Source: Desulfobulbaceae bacterium
GTDB lineage: Bacteria; Desulfobacterota; Desulfobulbia; Desulfobulbales; Desulfobulbaceae
Direction of reading: 5' to 3'
Assembly (NCBI GenBank): GCA_015484845.1
Contig: WFUT01000139.1
Location: 1-32,079, forward strand
DNA length: 32,079 nucleotides
Part shown: piece by piece, positions 3,477 through 25,156 of the stretch
Numbering within the stretch: position 1 is the first letter of the stretch
How the letters are laid out: every line of letters begins with the position of its first letter
Made by a program: the position numbers and the translations under genes
The notes under the pieces: generated by a model
Seen by the model: only the letters and a program-made list of their open reading frames with translations
Databases searched by the model: none
Told to the model about the DNA's origin: nothing

Positions 3477-4373
3477 TTATCTTTTTCTCTCCACGATGTA
3501 GGTGGCAAGGGCGCGCAGCGGTTCTGCGCTTTCCCCGAAGGATTCCAGGGCGCCGATGGCCGTGGCGACCGCCTCCCTGGCCATGGTGCGCGATTTCTCA
3601 ATTCCGAACAGGGCAGGGTAGGTGGCCTTGCCGGCATCGGCATCGCTGCCGGCGGTCTTGCCGAGCTGTTCGGTGGTGGATTCAACATTGAGCAGGTCAT
3701 CGACGATCTGGAAGGCCAGGCCGATGGCGTTGCCATAGGTGACCAGGGCATCGAGCTGCGTGCTGTCCGCGCCGGCCGCGATCCCCCCGGCCTCCACCGC
3801 CGCGGTGATCAGGGCGCCGGTCTTGCTGCGGTGGATGGTCCGGAGCAGCTCGTAGGGAATGTCCTTGCCCTCGTTGGCCATGTCCAGGCTCTGGCCGCCC
3901 ACCATGCCCAGCGGCCCGGCCGCCCGGGCAATGGTGTGGCAGATCCGCAGCCTGGCCCCGGCGGGCAGGGTGGAGTTGTCCGGGGCGCCGAGCAGCTCAA
4001 AGGCAAAGCTCAGCAGGCCGTCCCCGGCCAGGATGGCCTCGGCCTCGCCGAACACCTTGTGGTTGGTCGGCTTGCCGCGGCGCAGGTCGTCGTTGTCCAT
4101 GGCCGGCAGGTCGTCGTGGATCAGGGAGTAGGTATGGATGCACTCCATGGCGCAGGCCACGGGCATGACCTCCCGGTCCAGGGACGTATCGCCGGTGACG
4201 GCACGGGCCGCGGCCAGGCAGAGGATGGGCCGTACCCGCTTGCCGCCGACAAAGAGGCTGTAGCGCATGGCCTCGATGAGGCGGGCAAAGTCGCCCTCGG
4301 CCGGCAGCATGAGCCGGGCAAGGTGCTCCTCGACCAGGCGGCGCTGCTCTTCAAGATAGGGTTTGATCTCCAC
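3477..4373 (-). CDS. ispA: Polyprenyl (farnesyl/geranylgeranyl) diphosphate synthase
   Basis: A short-chain trans-prenyltransferase that builds FPP or GGPP from IPP and DMAPP, downstream of the MEP pathway that dxs begins. The first aspartate-rich motif DDLPAMDND and the second DDLLN are both present, with GGKRVRP and QSLDM blocks in the expected places. The second motif ends in Asn rather than Asp (DDxxN), a variant I believe is tolerated in bacterial homologues. I place the start at a GTG at 4373 ([10 protein letters not shown]) because GAGGA sits 5 bp upstream. In-frame TTG (4388) and ATG (4385) starts exist but lack any Shine-Dalgarno. With the GTG start the gene overlaps the end of xseB by 23 bp and encodes 298 residues. 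Product chain length cannot be read from sequence alone. Confidence 0.93.
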
Positions 4374-4596
4374 GTTCTTCCTCATCAAAAGGGACTGGTT
4401 CCAGCTGGCCGCTCTTTTCGAGCAGCAGGTCGACCCGGCTGCGCGCCTCCTCGAGCTGGGTGCTGCAGAACCGGACCAGTTGGATACCCTCGTCGAATTT
4501 TTTCAGGCTCTTTTCCAGGCTCAGCTCGCCCTGTTCAAGCTCGGCGGTGATCTGCTCCAGCCGGGAGAGGGCGCTTTCAAATGTCTTTTTGGCCAT
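4351..4596 (-). CDS. xseB: Exodeoxyribonuclease VII small subunit
   Basis: XseB is the small, helical subunit that binds XseA to form exonuclease VII, which degrades single-stranded DNA into oligonucleotides. The 81-residue protein has the family pattern [20 protein letters not shown] followed by a second helix ([19 protein letters not shown]). The ATG at 4596 follows AAGGAG with 8 bp spacing. It is the first gene of the xseB-ispA-dxs operon, an arrangement common in Proteobacteria; the large subunit gene xseA is not in this window. Confidence 0.93.
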
Positions 4597-4649
4597 GGCC
4601 TCTGCTCCTTACCGATGCCGCTGCGTGCCATAATCAGCGACGATGCCGG

Positions 4650-4678
4650 TTGCAGCGCGGGGGTTTCGGGTTTACAAT
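4650..4678 (+). promoter_or_regulatory. Candidate sigma-70 promoter for xerC-hslVU
   Basis: TTGCAG (4650-4655), a 17-bp spacer and TACAAT (4673-4678, 5 of 6). The -35 box is weak (3 of 6). A perfect TATAAT also occurs at 4715-4720 but has no -35 partner. Either could drive xerC, whose ATG is at 4758. Confidence 0.4.
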
Positions 4679-4715
4679 GCACCGGCAACGGAACACTGTA
4701 CAAAAGGAATCTTTT

Positions 4716-4744
4716 ATAATAAACATTCCCTGCAATGCTTTCAA
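4716..4744 (-). promoter_or_regulatory. Sigma-70 promoter of the xseB-ispA-dxs operon
   Basis: On the minus strand TTGAAA (4739-4744) is separated by 17 bp from TATTAT (4716-4721); each hexamer matches consensus at 5 of 6 positions. The start near 4709 gives a leader of about 110 nt before xseB. It overlaps the control region of the divergent xerC. Confidence 0.6.
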
Positions 4745-4757
4745 CTCCTGTTTCATA

Positions 4758-5687
4758 ATGACCGGCCAGATCGACAATTTTGCCTCCTGGCTGCTGGTGG
4801 AGAAGGGATATTCCATCCACACGGTTGACTCTTATCTTTCTGATGTCAGGGAGTTTTACCGCTCTGCCGGCGAGCCGGCCGACGCAGCGGCGCTGACCAG
4901 CGAGCAGGTGCGGGCCTTTGTCGCCTCCCTCTATGGCACCGGTTCCGCCGCCACGGTGGCGCGCAAGCTCTCGGCCCTGCGGACGTTTTTCCGCTTCCTG
5001 GCCCGGGAGAAGGTCCTGGATCACGATCCCCTGGCCGGTATTGCCAATCCCCGCCTGGCACGTTATATTCCGACCTTTCTCACCGTGGACGAGGTCTTTG
5101 CCCTGCTCGAGGAGCCGGTGCCGGGCAGGGACAGCTTCGCCCTCCGGGACCGGGCCCTGATGGAACTGATGTATTCCACCGGCATGCGTGTCTCGGAGCT
5201 GGTCTCCTGCAACATGGAGGACCTTGATTTTACCGAGGGCATGGTTAGAGTGAGGGGCAAGGGCAACAGGGAACGGATCGTTCCCTTTGGTCGCGCGGCC
5301 GCCTCTGCCCTGGAGGCCTATTTCCCGCAGCGGCAGCGGCTGATCGCCGACCGGGTGAGCCGCGGCCATGTGGCCGAGCGCAGGGCCCTGTTCCTGAACA
5401 GCCGCGGCAGTCGTCTGTCGGCGCGCAGCGTCGAGCGGCTGGTCCGGATGTACGGCGGGCGGGCCGGCATCGCCACCGTGGTGACACCGCACGCCCTGCG
5501 CCACTCCTTTGCCACCCATCTGCTGGAGATGGGGGCCGACCTGCGCGTGGTCCAGGAGCTGCTCGGCCACGCCAGCCTGTCCACGACCCAGAAGTACACC
5601 CATGTCAACATGGACCACCTGAACCGGGTCTACGACAGCGCCCACCCGCAGGCCCGGTCTGGCGGGCGGGGGCCTTCCGGAGACTGA
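4758..5687 (+). CDS. xerC: Tyrosine site-specific recombinase XerC (CodV-like)
   Basis: A 309-residue tyrosine recombinase that, with a XerD partner, resolves chromosome dimers at dif. The N-terminal SAM-like core-binding domain covers about residues 5-90 and the catalytic domain 105-290. All catalytic residues are visible: R144 (TGMRVSE), K168 (RGKGNRER), H245 and R248 (HALRHSF), H271 ([10 protein letters not shown]) and nucleophile Y280 (KYTHV). I chose the ATG at 4758 because family members begin close to this point (QIDNFASWL); an upstream extension to 4581 would overlap xseB and reads as noise. No clear Shine-Dalgarno precedes it. The order xerC-hslV-hslU parallels codV-clpQ-clpY of Bacillus, which favours XerC over XerD. 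Confidence 0.9.
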
Positions 5688-14326: not shown

Positions 14327-15274
14327 TCAGGGACGCCGTTTCAGGCCCTTGACCCCCTCCAGGTTGGCCCCCTTGAGGTTGGCCCCCTCGAGCTGGGCCC
14401 CGGACAGGTCGGCCCTGAGCAGGTTGGCGCCCTTGAGGTTGGCGCCCTTGAGGTTGGCGCCACGCAGGTTGGCGCCCGGCAGGTTGGCGAAAACCAGGAT
14501 GGCGCCCTCCAGGTTGGCGCCCTCCAGGTTGGCCCGGCGCAGGTTGGCCATGCGCAGGTTGGCGCCGGCCAGGTTGGCGCCGGCCAGGTCGGCACCCACC
14601 AGGTCGGCCTTTTTCAGGTCGGTATGGGCCAGGTTGCAGCCGGGACAGTCACGGGCCATCCACTTGATGGTGGAGCGGAAATCCTTGTCCGCGGCCGGTG
14701 CGGGGGTCGTGTTCTCGTCAATGATGGCCGGCTCGGTCTCTGTCTCCGGCGTTGCCGGTTTGGCGGCCTCGCTGGCCGGTGCGGGCGCCGGCCGGTGCTC
14801 CCCCTGCTGCCTGCGGATGGAGCGGCGATAGCTCCTCCGCCGTGCCTTGATCTCGTGGTAGAGGCTCTTGGCATCGCCGGGCATCTGCTCTGCCGTGTAG
14901 GCAAGCACGCCCGAGCCGTTGACCAGGTAGTAGGTCCCGTCAGCGACAAGGACCTGGAAACAGCGCAGATCACCGTACCACCATGATTGCATTCGCAGGC
15001 AGAGCTCTCCCTGGTCGCTGACGTCCCACTTGCCGATGTCCTTGTTGTCAAAGATGTCCTTGCCAAAGAGACGTCCCGAATGGTCAAAGAAGAGGTAGGT
15101 GTCCTCCTGGAGCGAGTGGATGAACAGGGTGTTGCCATCCACCAGGGCGAGCACCTTGGCCGGCGGCAGTTGCCTGGCGCCCTTGCGTTTTTCCAGGCTC
15201 CTGGTGTTGTTGGGAGCACAGCCGGCAAGGAGGGAGAGGACCAGGACGATGGTAAAAAAGCAGAGACGTTGCAT
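14327..15274 (-). CDS. Pentapeptide-repeat lipoprotein
   Basis: A 315-residue predicted lipoprotein. The signal peptide ends in the lipobox LLAGC with lipidated Cys19. Residues about 38-135 form an uncharacterised domain ([16 protein letters not shown], a GDLRCFQVL block and [11 protein letters not shown]) with two cysteines (C92, C105) that could pair. A basic then Pro/Ala/Glu-rich linker covers 140-200. After a CPGC motif (210-213), 19 consecutive pentapeptides of the A(N/D)LxG type run from 214 to 308 and should fold as a right-handed quadrilateral beta-helix. I chose the ATG at 15274, with GAGG upstream, because it places the signal peptide at the N-terminus; the frame is open further upstream. 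Function unknown, probably envelope-associated. Confidence 0.82.
14351..14635. repeat. 15-bp coding tandem repeats (pentapeptide array)
   Basis: About 19 degenerate 15-bp units, each containing a variant of AGGTTGGC on the plus strand, encode the pentapeptide solenoid. Adjacent units differ by only a few bases, so unit number could vary between strains by slippage or recombination. Confidence 0.85.
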
Positions 15275-15721
15275 GTCGACCTCGGGGGACGGAAACCTAG
15301 GGGACAGGTCCGGGCGGCGGCCGCCTGCGCCGGACTCCTGCCTGTTACCTGTTTTCGTTGATTGTTGTGCCTGCGTGTGCATGACCGGCCGGCCGCGCAG
15401 GGACATGGCGTCCGCATCCCGGAGCATGCACGGAAAATGTCACTGACCAGGAGTGCCGCGGCCCTGGCCAGGCGCCATGGTTCGCCTTGGCCGTCCTGCG
15501 CGGGGGGTGGCGATGGCGCGGGGTATCCGTGACGGCTTGTCCCTGGTCACGTGCCGGGTATGGCTGCGGCCGGAACAGCAGCGGGGCTGGCATGGGATCT
15601 CCGCCCTGCCAGCGGTATCTTACACGTTCGCCACGCTTTTGGCATCTATTTCTTGCCGGCCGGCCGCCGACCGGGCCAGGCGCAGGATCTCCGGCCCGCC
15701 TGCCGGGTCCTTCTCGGCACG
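15275..15721. other. 447-bp GC-rich gap with no recognised gene
   Basis: Between the pentapeptide gene and motA, both on the minus strand, I find no gene with a ribosome site, no RNA gene and no confident promoter or terminator. Short palindromes such as GGCCGGCC occur (around 15376 and 15656) but look like GC-rich background. A promoter for the pentapeptide gene is expected here and was not identified. Confidence 0.5.
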
Positions 15722-16525
15722 CTAGGCCTGGATGCGGAACTGTTCCCTGATCCTGGCCAGCGGCACCAGGTCGGCCTTTCGCTCGGAGGGGGTGAGGAAG
15801 GAGAGGAGCTTGGTCTTGAGGATGGTGGGGTTGAGTTCACTCTTGATGGCGATCACCCCTTCCATGATGATCTTCTGCAGGAGCAGCTCCTGGTTGGTGC
15901 GCTCGCGCAGGTTGGCGGCAAAGGGGAGGAAGAGGAAGTTGGAGAGGATCAGGCCGTAGAGGGTGGAGGTGAGGGCCACCGGGATGGCGGACAGGATGAC
16001 CGAGGTGTCGCCGATGCCGGCGAGCATGGAGATCAGGCCGACCACGGAACCGATGATGCCAAAGGCGGGCAGGAAATCGGCAATGGTGCGCAGGACCCGC
16101 TCCGAGTCCTCCCGCCGCAGCTTGAAGAAGTACATCTCGGTGTTGAGGATGTCACGGATCTGCGCCGGCTCGTAGTTGTCCACCAGGCACCCCAGGGCGC
16201 GGCGGAGGAAGAGGATCGAGGTCTCGTTCTCGTCGGCCTGCAGGGAGAGGATCCCCTGCATCCTCGACTTGACGGCAAGGTCGATGAGGATATCGACGAT
16301 CTCGCTTTCCGACTTGATGCGGCGGCCGTAGGAGGCGCGCACCACCTTGCCGACGATCCTGAGCCGATCGAGCCGGAAGCTGAGCAGGGCCGCGGCCGTG
16401 GAACCGCCGACCACGATCATGAACCCGGCCAGGTTGAAATAGAGGCTGATGTTGCCCTTGAGGAAAAATCCCGCCGCAAAGACCAGGCAGCAGAGGATAA
16501 GGGCAAGGAGGTTCTGCCGCTGCAT
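15722..16525 (-). CDS. motA: MotA/PomA-type stator channel subunit
   Basis: A 267-residue inner-membrane protein of the MotA/TolQ/ExbB superfamily that, with MotB, conducts ions and drives rotation of a partner structure. The N-terminal pair of membrane helices includes LAGFMIVVGGSTAAALLSF. The second pair includes PAFGIIGSVVGLI and IPVALTSTLYGLILSNFLFLP, matching the proline-bearing MotA helices. The acidic/basic cytoplasmic segment RREDSERVLRTIADF precedes helix 3. The pattern is closer to MotA/PomA than to ExbB or TolQ. Its ATG overlaps the motB stop by one base (TGATG), so it is translated after motB; this order is the reverse of usual motA-motB operons. No flagellar genes are nearby. Confidence 0.87.
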   Translation of the reverse strand: MQRQNLLALILCCLVFAAGFFLKGNISLYFNLAGFMIVVGGSTAAALLSFRLDRLRIVGKVVRASYGRRIKSESEIVDILIDLAVKSRMQGILSLQADENETSILFLRRALGCLVDNYEPAQIRDILNTEMYFFKLRREDSERVLRTIADFLPAFGIIGSVVGLISMLAGIGDTSVILSAIPVALTSTLYGLILSNFLFLPFAANLRERTNQELLLQKIIMEGVIAIKSELNPTILKTKLLSFLTPSERKADLVPLARIREQFRIQA

Positions 16526-17727
16526 CAGGATCCCTCCTGCAGGGGAAAGGGCTCCTCTGCCGCCGGCACCGGTACGCTGGCCGCCTGTTGGCCGTTATCC
16601 AGGGGCATGGTCCGTATCGCCGGCGCCGGCTCGCGGGAGAGGATGATCTCCACCCGCCGGTTGGCGCTGCGGTTGGCTGCGCTGGTATTGGGCCGTACCG
16701 GCCGGAAATAGCTGTAGCCCGAGACAACGATCTGGGAGCCGGGGATGCCGGCCTCCTCCATGAGATAGCGGGCCACCTGGCAGGCCCGGGCCGTGGACAG
16801 TTCCCAGTTGGTGGGATAGCGGGGCGAGCTCATGGGCACCGAGTCGGTGTGGCCGACCACGTTGATCATGTAGGGGGTATGGCTGATGATGGCGGCCAGC
16901 TTGCGCAGGGAGCGCCGTGCTGCATCGGTCAGCTCGGCCCGGCCCGAGTCAAAGAGCAGGTCGCCGGTGAGAATGATGCGCATGGTCTTGTCCGGGACCA
17001 GTTCCACGGAGGCGAATTTTTTCATCTTTTCACTGGCCAGGGTGGTGCGGGAGAGATCATAGATCCTGGTGATCAGTTCCCTGCCGTCAGTTCCCGGCCT
17101 GTCGGCCACGGCCTGCGTCCTTTCCGGTTCGCCGGTCGTGACCGCCAGGGTGGCTGCGGCCGGCCTCTTTTCGTCCCCGGCCGCGGGCAGTGGTGCCGCC
17201 TGCCGGACCGGGGACCCCGGCGAGGCGTCTGCTGCGGCCGCAGGCGGTGTCTCCCCTCCCCCTGCCGCTTCCCGGAATCTGCCTGGTGCGGGTGTGCGGT
17301 CCTGGCGTGTATCTTCCACCGGTCGCAGGACCTTGCCCCTGTTCCTGGCGATCTCCGGGGAGATGGGATAGAAGGGCAGGGTGGCGGACCGGGGCAGGGG
17401 CATGGCAAGGGGCCTGCCGCCGACCACCTCCACCTTCCTGCTGCTCAGGAAATCGCGGTGGGCGACCTGGTAGACAAACAGGGTCAGGAAGAGCACGAAC
17501 ATGGTCATCATCAGGTCGGACCAGGCAATGGACCAGTGCGGCGTGGAGGGTGTGCGGGAACGGAAGAAGGTGTCGTCCACGACAAAGACCGGGTGCGCGG
17601 AGATGGAGAGATTTTCTGGGCTGTCCTGCCGGATGTGTTGATCCACCGCTGACCAGTTGACGGTTCGGGTTGACTGTCGGGGGCCGGTGCTGCCGGGCGT
17701 GGTGGTCCCTGACCACCTTTTTCCCAT
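16525..17727 (-). CDS. motB: MotB-like stator protein with OmpA peptidoglycan-binding domain
   Basis: About 400 residues from the ATG at 17727. A single membrane helix (about 64-89) carries the channel aspartate, D71, in WSDLMMTMFVLFLTLFVY. A long, low-complexity Pro/Ala/Gly-rich linker (about 120-215) follows. The OmpA/MotB domain (about 251-366) has LLFDSGRAELTD, GHTDSVP, NWELSTARA and NRRVEI, the residues that contact diaminopimelate in peptidoglycan. Two features are unusual: a cytoplasmic tail of roughly 60 residues before the helix, where about 20-30 is common, and an in-frame TTG at 17760 that could lengthen it. Neither start has a clear Shine-Dalgarno. It lies 44 bp after the hybrid kinase and overlaps motA. 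Confidence 0.83.
   Translation of the reverse strand: MGKRWSGTTTPGSTGPRQSTRTVNWSAVDQHIRQDSPENLSISAHPVFVVDDTFFRSRTPSTPHWSIAWSDLMMTMFVLFLTLFVYQVAHRDFLSSRKVEVVGGRPLAMPLPRSATLPFYPISPEIARNRGKVLRPVEDTRQDRTPAPGRFREAAGGGETPPAAAADASPGSPVRQAAPLPAAGDEKRPAAATLAVTTGEPERTQAVADRPGTDGRELITRIYDLSRTTLASEKMKKFASVELVPDKTMRIILTGDLLFDSGRAELTDAARRSLRKLAAIISHTPYMINVVGHTDSVPMSSPRYPTNWELSTARACQVARYLMEEAGIPGSQIVVSGYSYFRPVRPNTSAANRSANRRVEIILSREPAPAIRTMPLDNGQQAASVPVPAAEEPFPLQEGS
17701..17722 (+). terminator. Terminator-like hairpin antisense to the motB start
   Basis: On the plus strand a 7-bp stem with a 3-nt loop (17701-17717) is followed by TTTTT, with a second T-run after it. No plus-strand gene ends here. On the motB mRNA the same stem lies a few codons after the ATG at 17727 and could lower its translation. 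Confidence 0.35.
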
Positions 17728-17771
17728 TTTTTCTATCGGCAGATCCCAGCCGTCGGACAAGGAAAAAAGGC

Positions 17772-20087
17772 TCAGGTCCTGTTTTTTTCGTCCCGGCCCT
17801 GCTCCTCCCCTGCCGGTTCCGCGGCCAGGATCCTGCGCACGGCGAGGCCCAGCTCGGTGATGGTAAAGGGTTTCTTGAGAAAGCCGCCGGCACCGAGTTC
17901 CATGGCCCTGTGCAGGTGGCTGTCCTCGGCATAGCCACTGACGACCAGGGCCCGCTGGCCGGGCCGGAAAGAGACGATGCCGGCATAGGTCTCGGCGCCG
18001 TTCATGCCGGTGCCCATCAGCATGTCCAGGAGGACCAGGTCGGCCTCCTGCTCGCGGAGATAACCTATCGCCTCCTCGCCGCTGGCCACGGTCGTGACCC
18101 GGTAGCCGAGCTGGGTGAGCATCTTGTCGGCAATGTCGCGCTGCATGGCCTCGTCATCCACCACCAGGATGGTTTCGCCGTTGCCGCGCAGGTCTGCGGC
18201 CGGTGCCGCTTCATGCCCGTCCGGCGCCGTCTCCCCGGCCATGGGCAGGTAGATGGAAAACACGGTGCCCTGGCTGCCGCTGGTCACGGTGATGCAGCCG
18301 TCGTGCTCCTGGACGGTGTTCCAGACAATGGTGAGACCGAGGCCGGTGCCGCTTCTGCCCAGCTTCTTTTTACTGAAAAACGGCTCAAAGATCTGCCGGC
18401 ACGTTGCCTCGTCAATGCCGGGGCCGGTGTCCCTGACCCGGAGCAGGACATACTCGCCCGGGGCCATGGCCTCGCAGTCGGGCAGGGCGGAGCTGGCTGA
18501 AAACCGGCTGGTGGTCACGGTCACCGTGCCGGAACCGGTCATGGCCTCCAGGGCATTGATGACCAGGTTCATCAGGCACTTCCGGATATGGATGACCGAG
18601 CAGAAGACGGGCAGGGGGGTGTCGGCCAGCTCCAGCTCGAGCCGCACAGCCGGGGCGCTCTCCTTCTGCCGCCGGTACTCGGGCGAGTCGATGTAGTCAC
18701 GCACCAGGACGTTGAGATCAATGATCTTTTTCGTATTGGCCGTTCCCCGGGCCACGGTGAGCAGGTCGGCCACCACCTCCGAGGCCCGCAGGCCCGCCTC
18801 GCTGATGGCGACCAGGTCCTTTCTGAGGGGACTGTCCGGCGGCAGTTTCATGAGGAGGAGCTCGGGGTAGCTGACAATGCCGGAGAGGATATTGTTGAGG
18901 TCATGGGCAACGCCGCTGGCCATGAGACCGATGGCCTCCATCTTCCGGGCCTGGGTAAGTTTTTTCTCCATCCGCAGTTTTTCATCGGCCAGTCGTCTTT
19001 CCCGTTCCATGATCCTGGCCAGCTCACCGGTCATGGTGTTGAAGGCATCTTCCAGCTCACGGAGTTCGTCATAGCTGCGAAACGAGATCTGGCCGGAGAA
19101 GTTCCCCTTGGCCACCTCCTGCGAGGCATGGACCAGGGCGCGCAGCGGCCGGATGATGGAGCCGGCCAGCAGGTAGGAGAGGGTGAGGATCAGCAGGACC
19201 AGGGCCGCGAGGAGCAGGAGGATGGAGTTGCGCAGGGTCCTGGTGGCGGACAGGAAATCCGCCGCATCCCAGGAGACCACCGTGCTCCAGCCCATGTCCG
19301 CCAGGGGCACGTGCGCCACGAACGAGTCCACGCCGGCCAGGCGTGCGCGGCCAAAGCCGGGGATGCCGGCACTGATTTCGTCGGCAAGTTGCGCCGCCCC
19401 GTCCCCTGTCATCTCGAGGCGGTCCATGGTCTCGTCCGGCAGGATCGAGTAGAGTATGGTGCCGTCCTGGGAGACCAGCCGGTATGTCCGCCCGCTGCCG
19501 ACCGGCTCGACGCCGGCCTTCTCGACCAGGGAGGCAAGCGGGACCTCGCCGAGAAGAATGCCGATGAACCGGTCGCCGAAATAGGCGGTGCGCAGGATGG
19601 CAAAGGGGATGACCAGCGTCTGCAGGGCGTCGCTGTGGACCGGCTCGCCGATGACGACCTGGTTGGGCGTTTTCCTGGCCCTGCGCACCACCGGCCGGTT
19701 GCTGTCGTCATGATCGCCCTCCCCGATCCGGCCGAAAATCGAATGGACCTCCTCCCTGCCTGCCTCGTTGATGTAGGCCAGAAAGGGAAAGGACGCGCTG
19801 TGCCTGGCCAGGTGCTGCTCCAGCAAGCCCTCTTCAAAGTTGACCGCGTACATGTCCATGGGTTTTCCCCTGGCGATCTCGAGGAACGAGGATCTCTCGT
19901 CATCCAGGTGCTCCGTGATCCGGGAGGCGAGGTTGGCGGCCAGGTATTCCAGGTGCTGCCGCCGGCACCGGAGCAGGGGACGGGCAAGGGCGTAGTAACT
20001 GAAAAAGGAGACCGTGATGATGCAGCCGAGGATGAGGCAGAGCTGCCAGAGGAAGATCTTGCCCCGGATGGAAAAGCGTGACCGCAT
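17772..20087 (-). CDS. Membrane hybrid histidine kinase with C-terminal receiver domain
   Basis: A 771-residue sensor. TM1 (about 12-34) and TM2 (about 288-310) bracket a 250-residue periplasmic domain that looks like a double-Cache ligand sensor (SQDGTILYSI, MGWSTVVSWD near the end). HAMP follows (about 311-362), then a coiled segment and a HisKA domain with H395 in SGVAHDLNNILSG. The ATPase domain shows the N-box (N511), DTGPGID and the TGLGLTIV box. The REC domain has D688 (LVLLDML) and K739. H-box wording (HDLNNIL) places it in the NtrB-like/HPK4 group. The ATG at 20087 follows the binding-protein stop by 1 bp, and motB follows 44 bp later. With no separate output domain, phosphate may pass to another protein, or REC may be inhibitory. 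Confidence 0.9.
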   Translation of the reverse strand: MRSRFSIRGKIFLWQLCLILGCIITVSFFSYYALARPLLRCRRQHLEYLAANLASRITEHLDDERSSFLEIARGKPMDMYAVNFEEGLLEQHLARHSASFPFLAYINEAGREEVHSIFGRIGEGDHDDSNRPVVRRARKTPNQVVIGEPVHSDALQTLVIPFAILRTAYFGDRFIGILLGEVPLASLVEKAGVEPVGSGRTYRLVSQDGTILYSILPDETMDRLEMTGDGAAQLADEISAGIPGFGRARLAGVDSFVAHVPLADMGWSTVVSWDAADFLSATRTLRNSILLLLAALVLLILTLSYLLAGSIIRPLRALVHASQEVAKGNFSGQISFRSYDELRELEDAFNTMTGELARIMERERRLADEKLRMEKKLTQARKMEAIGLMASGVAHDLNNILSGIVSYPELLLMKLPPDSPLRKDLVAISEAGLRASEVVADLLTVARGTANTKKIIDLNVLVRDYIDSPEYRRQKESAPAVRLELELADTPLPVFCSVIHIRKCLMNLVINALEAMTGSGTVTVTTSRFSASSALPDCEAMAPGEYVLLRVRDTGPGIDEATCRQIFEPFFSKKKLGRSGTGLGLTIVWNTVQEHDGCITVTSGSQGTVFSIYLPMAGETAPDGHEAAPAADLRGNGETILVVDDEAMQRDIADKMLTQLGYRVTTVASGEEAIGYLREQEADLVLLDMLMGTGMNGAETYAGIVSFRPGQRALVVSGYAEDSHLHRAMELGAGGFLKKPFTITELGLAVRRILAAEPAGEEQGRDEKNRT

Positions 20088-20088
20088 G

Positions 20089-21012
20089 TTATCGGACAGG
20101 GAAGGCCCCGTACTCCTCGATGATGCGGCGGCCTTCCGGGCCGAGGAGGAAACGGATGAACAGCCGTTGCGGCGCGCTGGGCTCATCCTTCCAGACCAGG
20201 GCAAGCGGAATGGCCAGGGGATAGTCGCCGGACGCGACCGCCTTGCCGGTCGGGGCGACTCCGTCCAGGGACGGCATCCCGAGACCGGTTCCGGCGGCGG
20301 CGCTCAGCGGGATATACCCGATGGTGCCGGGGGTGGAACGGAGGATGGCCACTGTCTCCGGGGTGGTGTAGATCGTTTCGCCGACAAAGGTGCGGATATC
20401 GCGGAACCCGGGAAGGAAGCGTTCCAGGATCCGCCGCGATGAATCGCCGGCCTCGCGGTTGGCGACGTATATCTTGCGGTCGGGCGAGCCGCCCAGCTGG
20501 CCCCAGGTCCTGATCCGGCCGGTATAGATGCCGATGATCTGCTCCCGGGTGAGGTTGCGCACCCCCTGCACCGAGGGGTGGATGGCAAAGACCACCGGCG
20601 CCCGGGCAAAGAGCAGGTAGGTGAGGCCCTGCTCTTTCTCCCGTTGCGTGAGGGGACGGGCGACCCTGGCCATCTGGCAGGTCCCGGCCAGGACCGCCTT
20701 GATGCCGCCGCCGCTGCCGGTGGATTCGGGAACCTCCACCAGGATGCCGGGATGGCGGGCCATGAAATCGTGCGCCACATGGCGCAGCAGTTCCTGGCTG
20801 TCACCGGTGCCGGCGATGACGAGGTGTTGCCGGTACCGTTGCCCCGCGGCCAGGGGCAACGCCAGGAGGCAGGAGAGGAGCAGGAAGAGAAACGGCACAA
20901 GCCACCGCACCGGCGCCGACCTGCCGCCGGCAGGACCGGGCGCGGTGGGCGATGCGGTTGCGGACAGCGGGGATCCGGGGCGGTGGTGTGCCGCAGGGAC
21001 GGTATCTTTCAT
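20089..21012 (-). CDS. PstS-like periplasmic substrate-binding protein
   Basis: A periplasmic binding protein of the phosphate-binding (PBP-like/PstS) type. The ligand-binding core has the GTGDSQELL and ESTGSGGGIKAVLAG segments near its N-terminus, NLTREQIIGIYTGRIRTW in the middle and SGDYPLAIPLALVW near the end, all typical of PstS-related proteins. From the ATG at 21012 the protein is 307 residues with about 33 hydrophilic residues before a hydrophobic signal (WLVPFLFLLLSCLLALPLAAG). A GTG at 20910 would start just before the signal and gives a more ordinary export sequence. No ABC transporter genes are nearby. It instead abuts a membrane sensor kinase (1-bp gap), which suggests a ligand-presenting role. 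Phosphate as ligand is not established. Confidence 0.75.
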   Translation of the reverse strand: MKDTVPAAHHRPGSPLSATASPTAPGPAGGRSAPVRWLVPFLFLLLSCLLALPLAAGQRYRQHLVIAGTGDSQELLRHVAHDFMARHPGILVEVPESTGSGGGIKAVLAGTCQMARVARPLTQREKEQGLTYLLFARAPVVFAIHPSVQGVRNLTREQIIGIYTGRIRTWGQLGGSPDRKIYVANREAGDSSRRILERFLPGFRDIRTFVGETIYTTPETVAILRSTPGTIGYIPLSAAAGTGLGMPSLDGVAPTGKAVASGDYPLAIPLALVWKDEPSAPQRLFIRFLLGPEGRRIIEEYGAFPVR

Positions 21013-21148
21013 CGGGATTGGTTGTCTGTAGATGCTTTCCTGTCTCGATCCTGCGCCCATGGGGATGGCGGCATGGCCTCGAGGGCCCTGTATCGCCGCT
21101 GCCACCGCAGCTTCGTATCTCCGGCAAACCTATCAATTGCAGGATCCG

Positions 21149-21177
21149 TTTATAAGTATATATTCAATGGCAGGCAA
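21149..21177 (-). promoter_or_regulatory. Sigma-70 promoter of the binding protein-kinase-motBA operon
   Basis: On the minus strand TTGCCT (21172-21177, 4 of 6) is separated by 17 bp from TATAAA (21149-21154, 5 of 6), in an AT-rich island unlike its surroundings. Start near 21142 gives a leader of about 130 nt to the ATG at 21012. It lies between the TIM-barrel gene and the binding protein, so the operon probably starts here. Confidence 0.55.
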
Positions 21178-21231
21178 AGTGAAGATGCTTGCCGGGGAAA
21201 ATCCGCAAAAAATGTTCTGGCCCAACGGTTT

Positions 21232-22056
21232 TCAGGGATTTTCGTGTCCGGTGTCAGTGCCGGGTGGCCCGGAGCAGGGCAGGGCCATGGCCTGCATGGC
21301 GGCCAGCGACTGCCAGAGATCCTCTTCGCTGTGGGGCTCCAGGGTGAGCAGGGGCTCGAGACCCTGGCGGCCGAGATAGTCAAACAGGCCCTGGAAATCA
21401 AACCTGCCGCGGCCGATGGCCAGGTGGGCGTCGCTGGAACCGTCGTTGTCGTGCAGGTGGAGCTGGCCGAGCCACGGGCCCAGCTCGTCGAGCCACTGCC
21501 GCCAGCCGGTGCCGGCAAAGGCCAGCAGGTGGCCGACATCGAGGCAGAAGCCGACATTTTTCGCATCCAGGGCCTCCAGGAGTTTCCGGTGGACCCGGGG
21601 CCCCTGTTCGTAGGTGTTTTCGAACATGACCCGCGTGCCGGCACGTTCCGCCATGGGGATCAGCTCGGTCCAGGTGGCCAGGGAACGCTGCAGCCACTCG
21701 TCGAAACGGTTCGCGTGCTTGTGGGCCTCGTAGCCGAGGTGGCAGACAATGGAGCAGGGCCGGAAGATCTGGACCAGGGCAAAGGCACGGCGCAGCTTGG
21801 CGCGGCTGAGCCCGACGATCCGTTCTTCCCTGCCGCCGGGCGCAAGATCGGTAAAAGGCGCGTGCAGGGTGCAGGCCAGTCCCGCCCGGCGCAGGCGGTC
21901 CGCGATGCGGGCAAAATCGTCATCGCCTGCCTGCCAGAGGCACCGGCCGTCCAGGCCGATTTCCGGCTGCAGCCGGTTGCGGAGAAAAAGCTCCAGCAGG
22001 TCCTGCTGCAACCGCTCAAAGGGGGCATTGACAAAGCAGTGAAAATTTTTCTTCAT
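21232..22056 (-). CDS. Sugar phosphate isomerase/epimerase-like TIM-barrel protein
   Basis: A 274-residue cytoplasmic protein of the xylose isomerase-like/AP endonuclease 2 TIM-barrel superfamily. Likely metal ligands are visible: H106 (VCHLGY), E146 (FENTYE), D173 and H176 (LDVGHLL), H200/H202 (LHLHDND) and E240 (LEPH). This set fits a divalent-metal enzyme acting on sugars, sugar phosphates or cyclitols, or a DNA-repair relative; the reaction cannot be assigned. The ATG at 22056 gives MKKNFHCFVN; another ATG at 22083 (MPPKSCIPK) is possible and has only a weak AAAGA upstream. It is divergent from the sensor kinase at 22168 and lies 219 bp before the binding protein gene. Confidence 0.8.
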   Translation of the reverse strand: MKKNFHCFVNAPFERLQQDLLELFLRNRLQPEIGLDGRCLWQAGDDDFARIADRLRRAGLACTLHAPFTDLAPGGREERIVGLSRAKLRRAFALVQIFRPCSIVCHLGYEAHKHANRFDEWLQRSLATWTELIPMAERAGTRVMFENTYEQGPRVHRKLLEALDAKNVGFCLDVGHLLAFAGTGWRQWLDELGPWLGQLHLHDNDGSSDAHLAIGRGRFDFQGLFDYLGRQGLEPLLTLEPHSEEDLWQSLAAMQAMALPCSGPPGTDTGHENP

Positions 22057-22167: not shown

Positions 22168-23760
22168 ATGAAAATCAAACGCAAGCTGGCAAATTACATC
22201 CTGATGGCCTTTTTCCTCAACATCTTCGCCATCATCAGCGTGGGCGGAGTCTGCATTATCCTGGTGCGGGACATGGCCCGGGACAATGACCGGATGAAGA
22301 CCGAGACCGATTATGTCGTCCGTATCTATGACATGAATAACAAGATCCAGGAAGCTATTTTCCTGGTACAGAACTCGGTCATCAAGCTGGACAGGGACCG
22401 GTTGCGTTACGCCCTCTCCGTGGTCAAGGATGTGGCGGGCGAGGTGGCGCTCGCCAAGGAGGAGGAGACGGACAAGGGATCCTATGGCCTCAAGATGTTT
22501 CTTCTTTTTCAGCAGATCGAGGAGAACGTCCGTGCCATCAGGAGCCAGCTGCACAGGATCGATTCCCGGTTTGATCGCGCCAGCCCCGTGACCAAGGTGA
22601 TCATGAAGGACCTGGAGAACCGCGGCTACAGGATACAGAAACTGGTGGAGAGCATCAACCGGGAACATATCGGGACCATCGAGAAGCTGGTCGATGAATC
22701 CGACGGCAAGATGTACTACATCCTGTTTCTGTACCTGACCTCCTGCGTTGTGGGCATCGTCGCCTCCTGTATCGGCTATATCGCCCTGACGCGTTACACC
22801 ATCATCCCCATCATGCACCTGGCCGAGGCAACGGAACGGGTGACCTTCGGCGATCTCTCGGTGCGGGTGCAGACCGATTCCAAGACCGAGCTCGGCCAGC
22901 TCTACTCCACCTTCAATCTCATGACCCAGAACCTGCAGGAGCATGAACGGCAGCAGGAGGCCTTTAACCGCGAACTCGAGCGGCTGGTGGAGGAACGGAC
23001 AGCCGAGCTGCGGGCCTCTGAGGAGTCCCTGCGCAAGACCCAGAAGGACCTGCTCCGCATGGAGAAGATCGCCACCCTGGGCCAGATCGCCTCCACGGTC
23101 AACCACGAGATCAAGACCCCCCTCAACGTCCTTTACATGAACCTGCAGCTCCTGAACAAGCAGATCAGGAAGGCCCGGGTCGAGGAGGCGACAGAGAAGG
23201 AGAAGATGCTCAAGATCACCTCGCTGATCAACAACGAGATCGTCCGTATCAACGGTATCATCGAGGAGTTTGTCAAGTATGCCCGTTTCCCGGCCCCGGA
23301 GTTCGGCAAAAAGGATCTCAACGAGATTGTCGACCAGATCGCGGAGATCGTTGACCAGAGCGCGGTCGATGCCGGCGTCACCATCGAGGTGGAGAAGGAC
23401 GAGTCCCTGGAGCCCATCATGCTCGACGACAAGAAGATCACCCAGGCCCTGCTCAACCTGTGCATGAACGCCATCCAGGCCATGCCCGACGGCGGCACCC
23501 TGAAGCTGTCGACCCGGCGGGAGGAGGACCATGTCCTGCTCCGGGTCGCCGATACGGGCAAGGGGATCGAGCCCGCGGACCTGGAAAAGATCTTCGAACC
23601 GTTCTTTACCAAGAAGGTCCAGGGCATGGGATTCGGCCTGGCCATCGTCCAGCGGATCATCGAGGATCACGGCGGCCAGATCACCTGCGAGAGCGAGCCG
23701 GGCAAGTACACGGTCTTCACAATACGGCTTCCCATTAACGCCGGATCGCAGTATCTGTAG
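22168..23760 (+). CDS. NtrB/ZraS-type membrane sensor histidine kinase
   Basis: A 530-residue kinase. TM1 (about 11-33) and TM2 (about 184-208) flank a helical periplasmic domain of about 150 residues, perhaps a four-helix bundle. HAMP (about 209-262) and a coiled coil (260-300) lead to the HisKA domain with H313 in TVNHEIKTPLN. The HATPase domain has the N-box (N434 in NAIQAMPDGG), D462 in DTGKGIE, FEPFFTKK and GFGLAI. Its partner is the sigma-54-dependent regulator 49 bp downstream. No clear Shine-Dalgarno precedes the ATG. The signal is unknown; the architecture resembles envelope or metal-stress sensors such as ZraS. Confidence 0.92.
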   Translation: MKIKRKLANYILMAFFLNIFAIISVGGVCIILVRDMARDNDRMKTETDYVVRIYDMNNKIQEAIFLVQNSVIKLDRDRLRYALSVVKDVAGEVALAKEEETDKGSYGLKMFLLFQQIEENVRAIRSQLHRIDSRFDRASPVTKVIMKDLENRGYRIQKLVESINREHIGTIEKLVDESDGKMYYILFLYLTSCVVGIVASCIGYIALTRYTIIPIMHLAEATERVTFGDLSVRVQTDSKTELGQLYSTFNLMTQNLQEHERQQEAFNRELERLVEERTAELRASEESLRKTQKDLLRMEKIATLGQIASTVNHEIKTPLNVLYMNLQLLNKQIRKARVEEATEKEKMLKITSLINNEIVRINGIIEEFVKYARFPAPEFGKKDLNEIVDQIAEIVDQSAVDAGVTIEVEKDESLEPIMLDDKKITQALLNLCMNAIQAMPDGGTLKLSTRREEDHVLLRVADTGKGIEPADLEKIFEPFFTKKVQGMGFGLAIVQRIIEDHGGQITCESEPGKYTVFTIRLPINAGSQYL

Positions 23761-23809
23761 CAGAGCAGAGTTTCGATACTGTCCATTCCGACCATCCCCC
23801 CTGACTGAC

Positions 23810-25156
23810 ATGGAAAAAAACAAGATACTCATCGTCGACGACGACAACATGACCCTGCAGACCCTGTCCATGGCCCTGGAGGACGATTACGAGACCCTCA
23901 CCGCCACCAATGGCCTGAATGCCCTCAAGGTCCTGGCCAGGGAGGACGTCGATGTTGTCCTCTCCGACATGGACATGCCCGGCCTCAACGGCATCGAGCT
24001 GCTGGCAAAGATCAACGAGATGGAGGAGCCGGTGCCGGTGATCGTCATCACCGGGCAGGGGACCATCGAGACCGCTGTCAAGGCCATGAAGCTCGGCGCC
24101 TGTGATTATGTCACCAAGCCCGTCAACCTGGACCGGCTGGCCCTGCTCATCGAGAAGACACTGGAGAACCAGCGGCTCAAGGACGAGAACCGGCTGCTCA
24201 AGCAGCGGATCCGCGAGCATGGTCCGGACCTGAACATCATAGGCCACTCGGCGGCGCTTGCAAAATGCAAGGACCTTGCCCTGCAGGTGGCCGGGACCAA
24301 GGCCACGGTTCTCATCGAGGGCGAGTCCGGGACCGGCAAGGAGCTGATCACCAACATCATCCACTACAACTCGCCGGTGGCGCACGGTCCGCTGATCAAG
24401 GTCAACTGTTCCGCCTTTTCCGAGGGCGTGCTGGAGTCCGAGCTGTTCGGCCACGAAAAGGGCGCCTTCACCGGTGCCGTGGCGGCCAAGAAGGGCCGGT
24501 TCGAGCTCGCCAACGGCGGCACCCTCTTCCTGGACGAGGTGGGCGAGATGCCGCTCTCCATCCAGGTCAAGCTGCTCCGTTTCCTGCAGGAGAAGACCTT
24601 TGAACGGGTCGGCGGCACCAGGACCATGAAGGTGGACGTGCGCATCATCTCGGCCACCAACAAGAACCTGGCCGAGCTGGTCAAGGAGGGAAAGTTCCGT
24701 GACGATCTCTTCTACCGCCTGCGGGTGGTGAAGATCGAGATCCCGCCCCTGCGTGAGCGCAAGGAGGATATCGATGACCTGGTGGCGGGATTTGTCGCCA
24801 AGTTCTCCGAGCTGCACGGCAAGCCCATTGTCGGCATCGACGACCATGCCATGGAACTGATCCGGGCCTACAACTGGCCCGGCAACGTGCGCGAACTGAT
24901 GAACTGCATCGAAAGCGCCGTGGTCATGGCCAGGGGCGACGTCATCACTGTCGAGGAGATCCCGGAATATCTCACCTACAAGGCGCCCGGCGTGGAGCTC
25001 AACTCCAAGGAGGGCCTGCTGCACGAACTGGAGCGCAAGGCGATCATCGACACCCTGAACGCGACCCGGGGCGAAAAGGTCAAGGCGGCCAAGATCCTCG
25101 GCATCGGCCTGCGCACCCTGTATCGGAAGATCGAGAAGTACGAGCTGGAGGTATAG
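23810..25156 (+). CDS. Sigma-54-dependent response regulator (NtrC family)
   Basis: A 448-residue transcription activator. The receiver domain (1-120) has phospho-acceptor D53 (LSDMDMPG), T81 and K103. The AAA+ domain (about 142-380) carries Walker A GESGTGKE (171-178), the sigma-54-contacting GAFTGA loop (218-223), Walker B GGTLFLDEV (236-244) and the arginine-finger region FRDDLFYRL. A C-terminal Fis-type helix-turn-helix (about 408-446, KAAKILGIGLRTLYRKI) binds DNA. The ATG at 23810 lies next to the start of the canonical receiver (KILIVDDD), though the preceding sequence is pyrimidine-rich and lacks a ribosome site. It should be phosphorylated by the upstream kinase. The palindromes just downstream (25204-25237) are candidate binding sites. 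Confidence 0.95.
   Translation: MEKNKILIVDDDNMTLQTLSMALEDDYETLTATNGLNALKVLAREDVDVVLSDMDMPGLNGIELLAKINEMEEPVPVIVITGQGTIETAVKAMKLGACDYVTKPVNLDRLALLIEKTLENQRLKDENRLLKQRIREHGPDLNIIGHSAALAKCKDLALQVAGTKATVLIEGESGTGKELITNIIHYNSPVAHGPLIKVNCSAFSEGVLESELFGHEKGAFTGAVAAKKGRFELANGGTLFLDEVGEMPLSIQVKLLRFLQEKTFERVGGTRTMKVDVRIISATNKNLAELVKEGKFRDDLFYRLRVVKIEIPPLRERKEDIDDLVAGFVAKFSELHGKPIVGIDDHAMELIRAYNWPGNVRELMNCIESAVVMARGDVITVEEIPEYLTYKAPGVELNSKEGLLHELERKAIIDTLNATRGEKVKAAKILGIGLRTLYRKIEKYELEV

Follow-up and report, generated by a model that had tools for sequence, protein, structure and literature searches.

The most plausible reading of the four genes described here, to which we give a probability of roughly three in four, is that they are two independent units standing head to tail: a sensor kinase that would depend on a substrate-binding protein, by a principle like that of TorT/TorS, and an accessory stator with a promoter of its own. 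Gene content, the conservation of each unit without the other, a junction restricted to one genus, a promoter-like element at that junction and the co-occurrence of the stator with FliG are all observed directly and carry this reading. The arrangement is real, but it amounts to two units of known kinds that adjoin locally.

The window, i.e. the whole stretch of 32,079 nucleotides analysed, is one complete contig of a 3.4-Mb genome that is 97% complete and whose closest relatives carry the labels Desulfobulbaceae or Desulfobulbus. Re-reading it bore out the four minus-strand genes of the original prediction with their order and spacings, and profile searches with Pfam and NCBIfam agreed with the domains assigned to them. 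In the direction of transcription, they encode a PstS-fold periplasmic binding protein (20089-21012, ATG start; PF12849, PBP_like_2, 1e-32); a dCache-HAMP-HisKA-HATPase-REC hybrid sensor kinase (17772-20087, ATG start; domains from Pfam), which follows after 1 bp; a MotB-type stator subunit (16525-17727, ATG start; PF00691, 2.3e-18; PF13677, 0.0007), separated from the kinase gene by 44 bp if the ATG at 17727 is its start; and a MotP/PomA-like, MotA-type stator subunit (15722-16525; PF01618, 6e-19; NCBIfam MotP, 2e-51 but below the cut-off), whose gene overlaps motB by 1 bp in the sequence TGATG. Upstream on the same strand lies a gene for an AP-endonuclease-2/xylose-isomerase-like TIM barrel (21232-22056, putative start; PF01261, 1.6e-27), followed by a divergent pair on the plus strand (22168-25156) that encodes a HAMP histidine kinase, also found near the corresponding locus L007, and an NtrC-type sigma-54 regulator. 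An Rfam search of the window gave no match.

The history of the junction can be read from its neighbours. With MotA as the query, 80 loci were fetched, making 81 with the window, and a gene for the binding protein occurs in only three of them: the window and the loci L006 and L007 of the congeners G005 and G006. Hence, the four-gene order is not peculiar to this strain: each of the three species examined in the genus has it (3/3 genomes), and it was seen only in that one genus of sulfate-reducer-like bacteria. In these three loci the sensor pair is flanked by the AP-endonuclease-like gene on one side and motB on the other, two genes that are direct neighbours, the former immediately upstream of the latter, in 17 loci outside the genus. 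On the other side, dnaE lies downstream of motA in 45 of the 81 loci and, in 32 of the 81, a gene for a pentapeptide-repeat protein (14327-15427 in the window, minus strand; PF00805, 8.5e-36) lies between the two, counts that, like all synteny counts here, depend on the flank length that each contig offers. Because the sensor pair separates two otherwise direct neighbours, its insertion upstream of the stator in the ancestor of the genus would be the simplest history. The binding proteins of the three species are only about 75% identical, and the persistence of the junction across such distances could reflect selection keeping the units together, a point that speaks against their independence.

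The binding protein belongs to a PstS-fold subfamily that is recognizable in alignment by motifs of its own: in place of the PstS binding loops GSTS, MASR and REDGSGTR, its members keep GTGDSQ, ARVARPL and NRExGDSSR, respectively, together with GSGGG. Since these conserved loops differ from those of PstS, the ligand may not be phosphate. It is very unlikely that the protein is an ordinary PstS of phosphate transport, possibly serving as a phosphate sensor, which came to lie beside the kinase by chance. Its AlphaFold model (pLDDT 86) does adopt the PstS fold, with 4gd5 as the best PDB match at about 26% identity, and the PBP_like_2 match points the same way, but the protein reaches only 111 bits against the cut-off of 206 of the PstS family model TIGR02136, neither Pst permease genes nor another phosphate-transport context was found in the window, the divergent loops are conserved across the subfamily, and its gene has a nearly constant partner of a different kind. 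Of the 243 genomes of the order, 43 contain a member of the subfamily, namely those of the three congeneric species and, at 31-52% identity, those of relatives outside the genus; in 32 of 33 inspected loci, those of the genus included, the gene directly downstream (spacing -43 to +147 nt) encodes a receptor homologous to the dCache/HAMP part of the kinase. No MotA or MotB relative was found outside the genus across 60 loci, of which 46 carry the binding protein. The binding protein and the kinase probably form one sensor unit, as the original prediction proposed, and the tightly spaced pair recurs in many genomes of the order.

Where their domains were read, these receptors have a hybrid kinase, a PAS kinase or a GGDEF (diguanylate) cyclase as their output. 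In locus L197, for instance, the output is swapped: the receptor beside the PstS-fold protein (3705-5678, minus strand) is a dCache-HAMP-PAS-GGDEF cyclase, and the receptors of L198 and L201 are similar to it in size. Fused variants of the binding protein also exist. In L204 (2687-4414) it is preceded by a further binding domain (ABC_sub_bind plus PBP_like_2), and the variant in L208 (2028-3752) is of the same length; a large receptor gene comes next in both, that of L204 coding for a dCache-PAS hybrid kinase. In the unit of the window, the secreted PstS-fold protein would bind its ligand and dock on the dCache domain that the membrane kinase exposes to the periplasm, and the signal would then run through HAMP to HisKA/HATPase and the attached receiver, from which phosphotransfer may reach a partner encoded elsewhere. 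Adjacency of genes for such binding proteins and sensor kinases (SBP-SHK) is common (PMC11113362), and activation of both kinases and diguanylate cyclases by such proteins is known (PMC9602780); in our literature search, this precise family of a PstS-like protein plus a dCache kinase was not found described.

The MotB-MotA pair, by comparison, is present across Desulfobulbales-type genomes, and motB precedes motA in 78 of the 81 loci, the three misses being contig ends; in six more distant loci, a gene with a CheZ domain lies downstream of motA. The original prediction had proposed a check for other motAB copies and flagellar genes, and the genome indeed contains a cluster with FliF, FlgE, FliG and a MotAB pair of its own, as well as FliA and flagellins. 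The MotA of that cluster and the MotA of the window are about 32% identical. The original prediction had also allowed for an ordinary flagellar stator with unrelated neighbours, which largely holds, except that the stator is a second one and not the only one. This MotA type, counted as present at 68% identity or more, or in one genome from a fragment of 84% identity where a contig ends, follows FliG closely. Both were found in 29 of 74 family genomes, only the stator in 2 (56% and 76% complete), only FliG in 11 and neither in 32; among the 41 with a completeness of 90% or more, the corresponding numbers are 19, 0, 3 and 19. Related genomes are not independent, so that a p-value from them is not a strict probability, but several genera lack both this MotA type and FliG.

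The proteins themselves have the features of a flagellar stator. MotA combines a PF01618 (MotA_ExbB) domain and a MotA-type length with invariant prolines (P153 and P201, in 80/80) and a conserved R88, and its closest solved structures are flagellar stators (6ysf/8ucs, 6e-45; PomA, 1e-34). At the positions of PomA T158, T185 and T186, it has S160 (80/80), S187 (77/80) and T188 (69/80), with serine replacing threonine at two of them; one may guess that these hydroxyl residues would fit the use of Na+. MotB has a single transmembrane helix with a conserved Asp in SDLMMTM, a motif kept as SDL or ADL in 76 of 78 relatives, and an OmpA-like C terminus of the peptidoglycan-binding type, and its match to MotB_plug is below the cut-off (19.5 versus 24 bits). 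The N-terminal part of this MotB type is unusually long, and a stretch RSRxP-HWSIAWSDLMMTMF is conserved before and in the transmembrane helix. One may argue that the pair drives a non-flagellar task such as gliding or envelope energisation (Tol/Exb-like), both among the possibilities named in the original prediction, or Zorya-type defence, given that motB and motA are located apart from the flagellar cluster and that the OmpA part of MotB gives matches to ZorB models. However, the near-perfect co-occurrence with FliG, with no case of stator without FliG in the more complete genomes, the conserved R88, P153 and P201, the flagellar stators as closest structures and the sigma-28-like element upstream of motB described below all argue against such a task, which we consider extremely improbable. 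The Zorya reading (padloc) was rejected: ZorA models have no match, ZorB is matched only via the OmpA domain, and no ZorC, ZorD or ZorE was found in the window by Pfam. Thus, motB and motA encode a putative second flagellar stator, MotA5:MotB2, that would serve the normal flagellum together with the MotAB pair of the flagellar cluster.

The gap between the kinase gene and motB contains an element that resembles a sigma-28 (FliA) promoter (17733-17761, minus strand), with a CTTGTC-like -35 and the -10 octamer GCCGATAG at 17740-17733, which is identical in the three congeneric species. The core of this -10, CCGATA, occurs in 47 of 78 motB upstream regions, compared with 4 on the antisense strand, 5.4 in shuffled sequences and 9.5% of windows elsewhere, and the spaced form TTTG-N16-18-CGATA occurs in 23 motB upstream regions and in none on the antisense strand. 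A motif derived from the motB upstream regions without those of the genus reads TTTCTTTTG-N-CCGATA, and a held-out scan with it recovered the element in the window (p=0.03) and in L007 (p=0.008), the best score in L006 being elsewhere. Compared with the Salmonella consensus for sigma-28, TAAAGTTT-N11-GCCGATAA (PMC4866697), the -10 fits, whereas the -35 fits poorly, being TTTTG in the relatives and degenerate in this genus; the degenerate -35 and the result in L006 both count against two independent units. In the flagellin loci, a search for GCCGATA at promoter distance gave no convincing match, and a TAAAG-N17-CGATAC-like site was seen by eye upstream of three of the genus's flagellin genes. 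The size of the gap itself depends on where MotB begins, which is uncertain: the first approximately 45 residues are poorly conserved, the ATG at 17727 is missing from both congeners, and an alternative in-frame GTG at 17646, which is TTG in both of them, would widen the gap to 125 bp. A hairpin of an A-tract and a T-tract overlaps the stop codon of the kinase gene (17755-17794, minus strand) and has a similar position in the three species, but it is a weak and non-canonical candidate for a terminator. Since there is no convincing terminator between the kinase gene and motB in the window, L006 or L007, read-through from one to the other is possible, which also counts against independence. Nevertheless, motBA is probably transcribed from this FliA-type promoter-like element, which would place it under sigma-28 and separate it from the sensor genes.

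This bears on the idea of the original prediction that one co-transcribed ligand-sensing unit is at work, with a kinase that is activated by the binding protein and whose output tunes a dedicated stator. The tight spacing of the genes and the order kept throughout the genus favour it, as does a promoter-like site that all three species keep upstream of the gene for the binding protein. This sigma-70-like site, TTCACT-17-TATACT, lies at 21155-21183 on the minus strand, not at 21149-21177 as originally given, and is a consensus match only (9/12); it is kept at the same position and with the same 17-bp spacing in L006 (11/12) and L007 (9/12), but one such match in this region is what chance predicts (1.1 expected). 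A single promoter for all four genes is doubtful because the sigma-28-like element sits between the kinase gene and motB. In addition, each unit is conserved where the other is missing, the stator across the group and the sensor pair across the order, the stator tracks FliG, the four-gene order is confined to one genus, and the unit encodes no response regulator or other effector able to act on the stator. A ligand-tuned dedicated motor is thus unlikely. Another form of coupling is conceivable, if doubtful, in which the insertion is functional in this genus: read-through from the promoter of the binding-protein gene would come on top of the stator genes' ancestral FliA-driven transcription, or the partner of the kinase would regulate motBA, and either way a periplasmic ligand would set the amount of the second stator.

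Setting aside the tempting ligand-driven motor leaves two more general points, both of which are testable. The first concerns the second stator, which is conserved in Desulfobulbales-type bacteria, linked to the flagellum and marked by a promoter-like signature. The second concerns a family of binding proteins with the PstS fold and with dCache receptors as partners; the outputs of these receptors, kinase or diguanylate cyclase, are interchangeable, and the family could help to find what such anaerobes sense.

Both units have well-studied counterparts. TorT-TorS, LuxP-LuxQ and ChvE-VirA are working analogues of sensor kinases activated by a binding protein. Together with NspS-MbaA, which acts through c-di-GMP, they share with the present pair a periplasmic binding protein encoded beside a membrane receptor, and TorS is, in addition, a hybrid kinase with a C-terminal receiver. 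The present pair differs from all four in that its binding protein has the PstS fold and in that the output of its dCache receptor varies between kinase and diguanylate cyclase; the PstS proteins 4gd5 and 1twy, in turn, are alike in fold, but here that fold is coupled to a receptor and not to a permease. Dual flagellar stators are likewise well known, as MotAB/MotCD in P. aeruginosa, PomAB/MotAB in S. oneidensis and MotAB/MotPS in B. subtilis, and motBA resembles them in being an additional pair of MotAB type that a flagellated genome carries apart from its main flagellar cluster. For Desulfovibrio, two to four stator sets are reported, and there may be three or four (PMC9039648). Compared with the three dual systems, the stator described here is distinguished by its gene order, motB before motA, by the conserved N-terminal cytoplasmic extension of MotB and by its synteny with the pentapeptide-repeat gene and dnaE.
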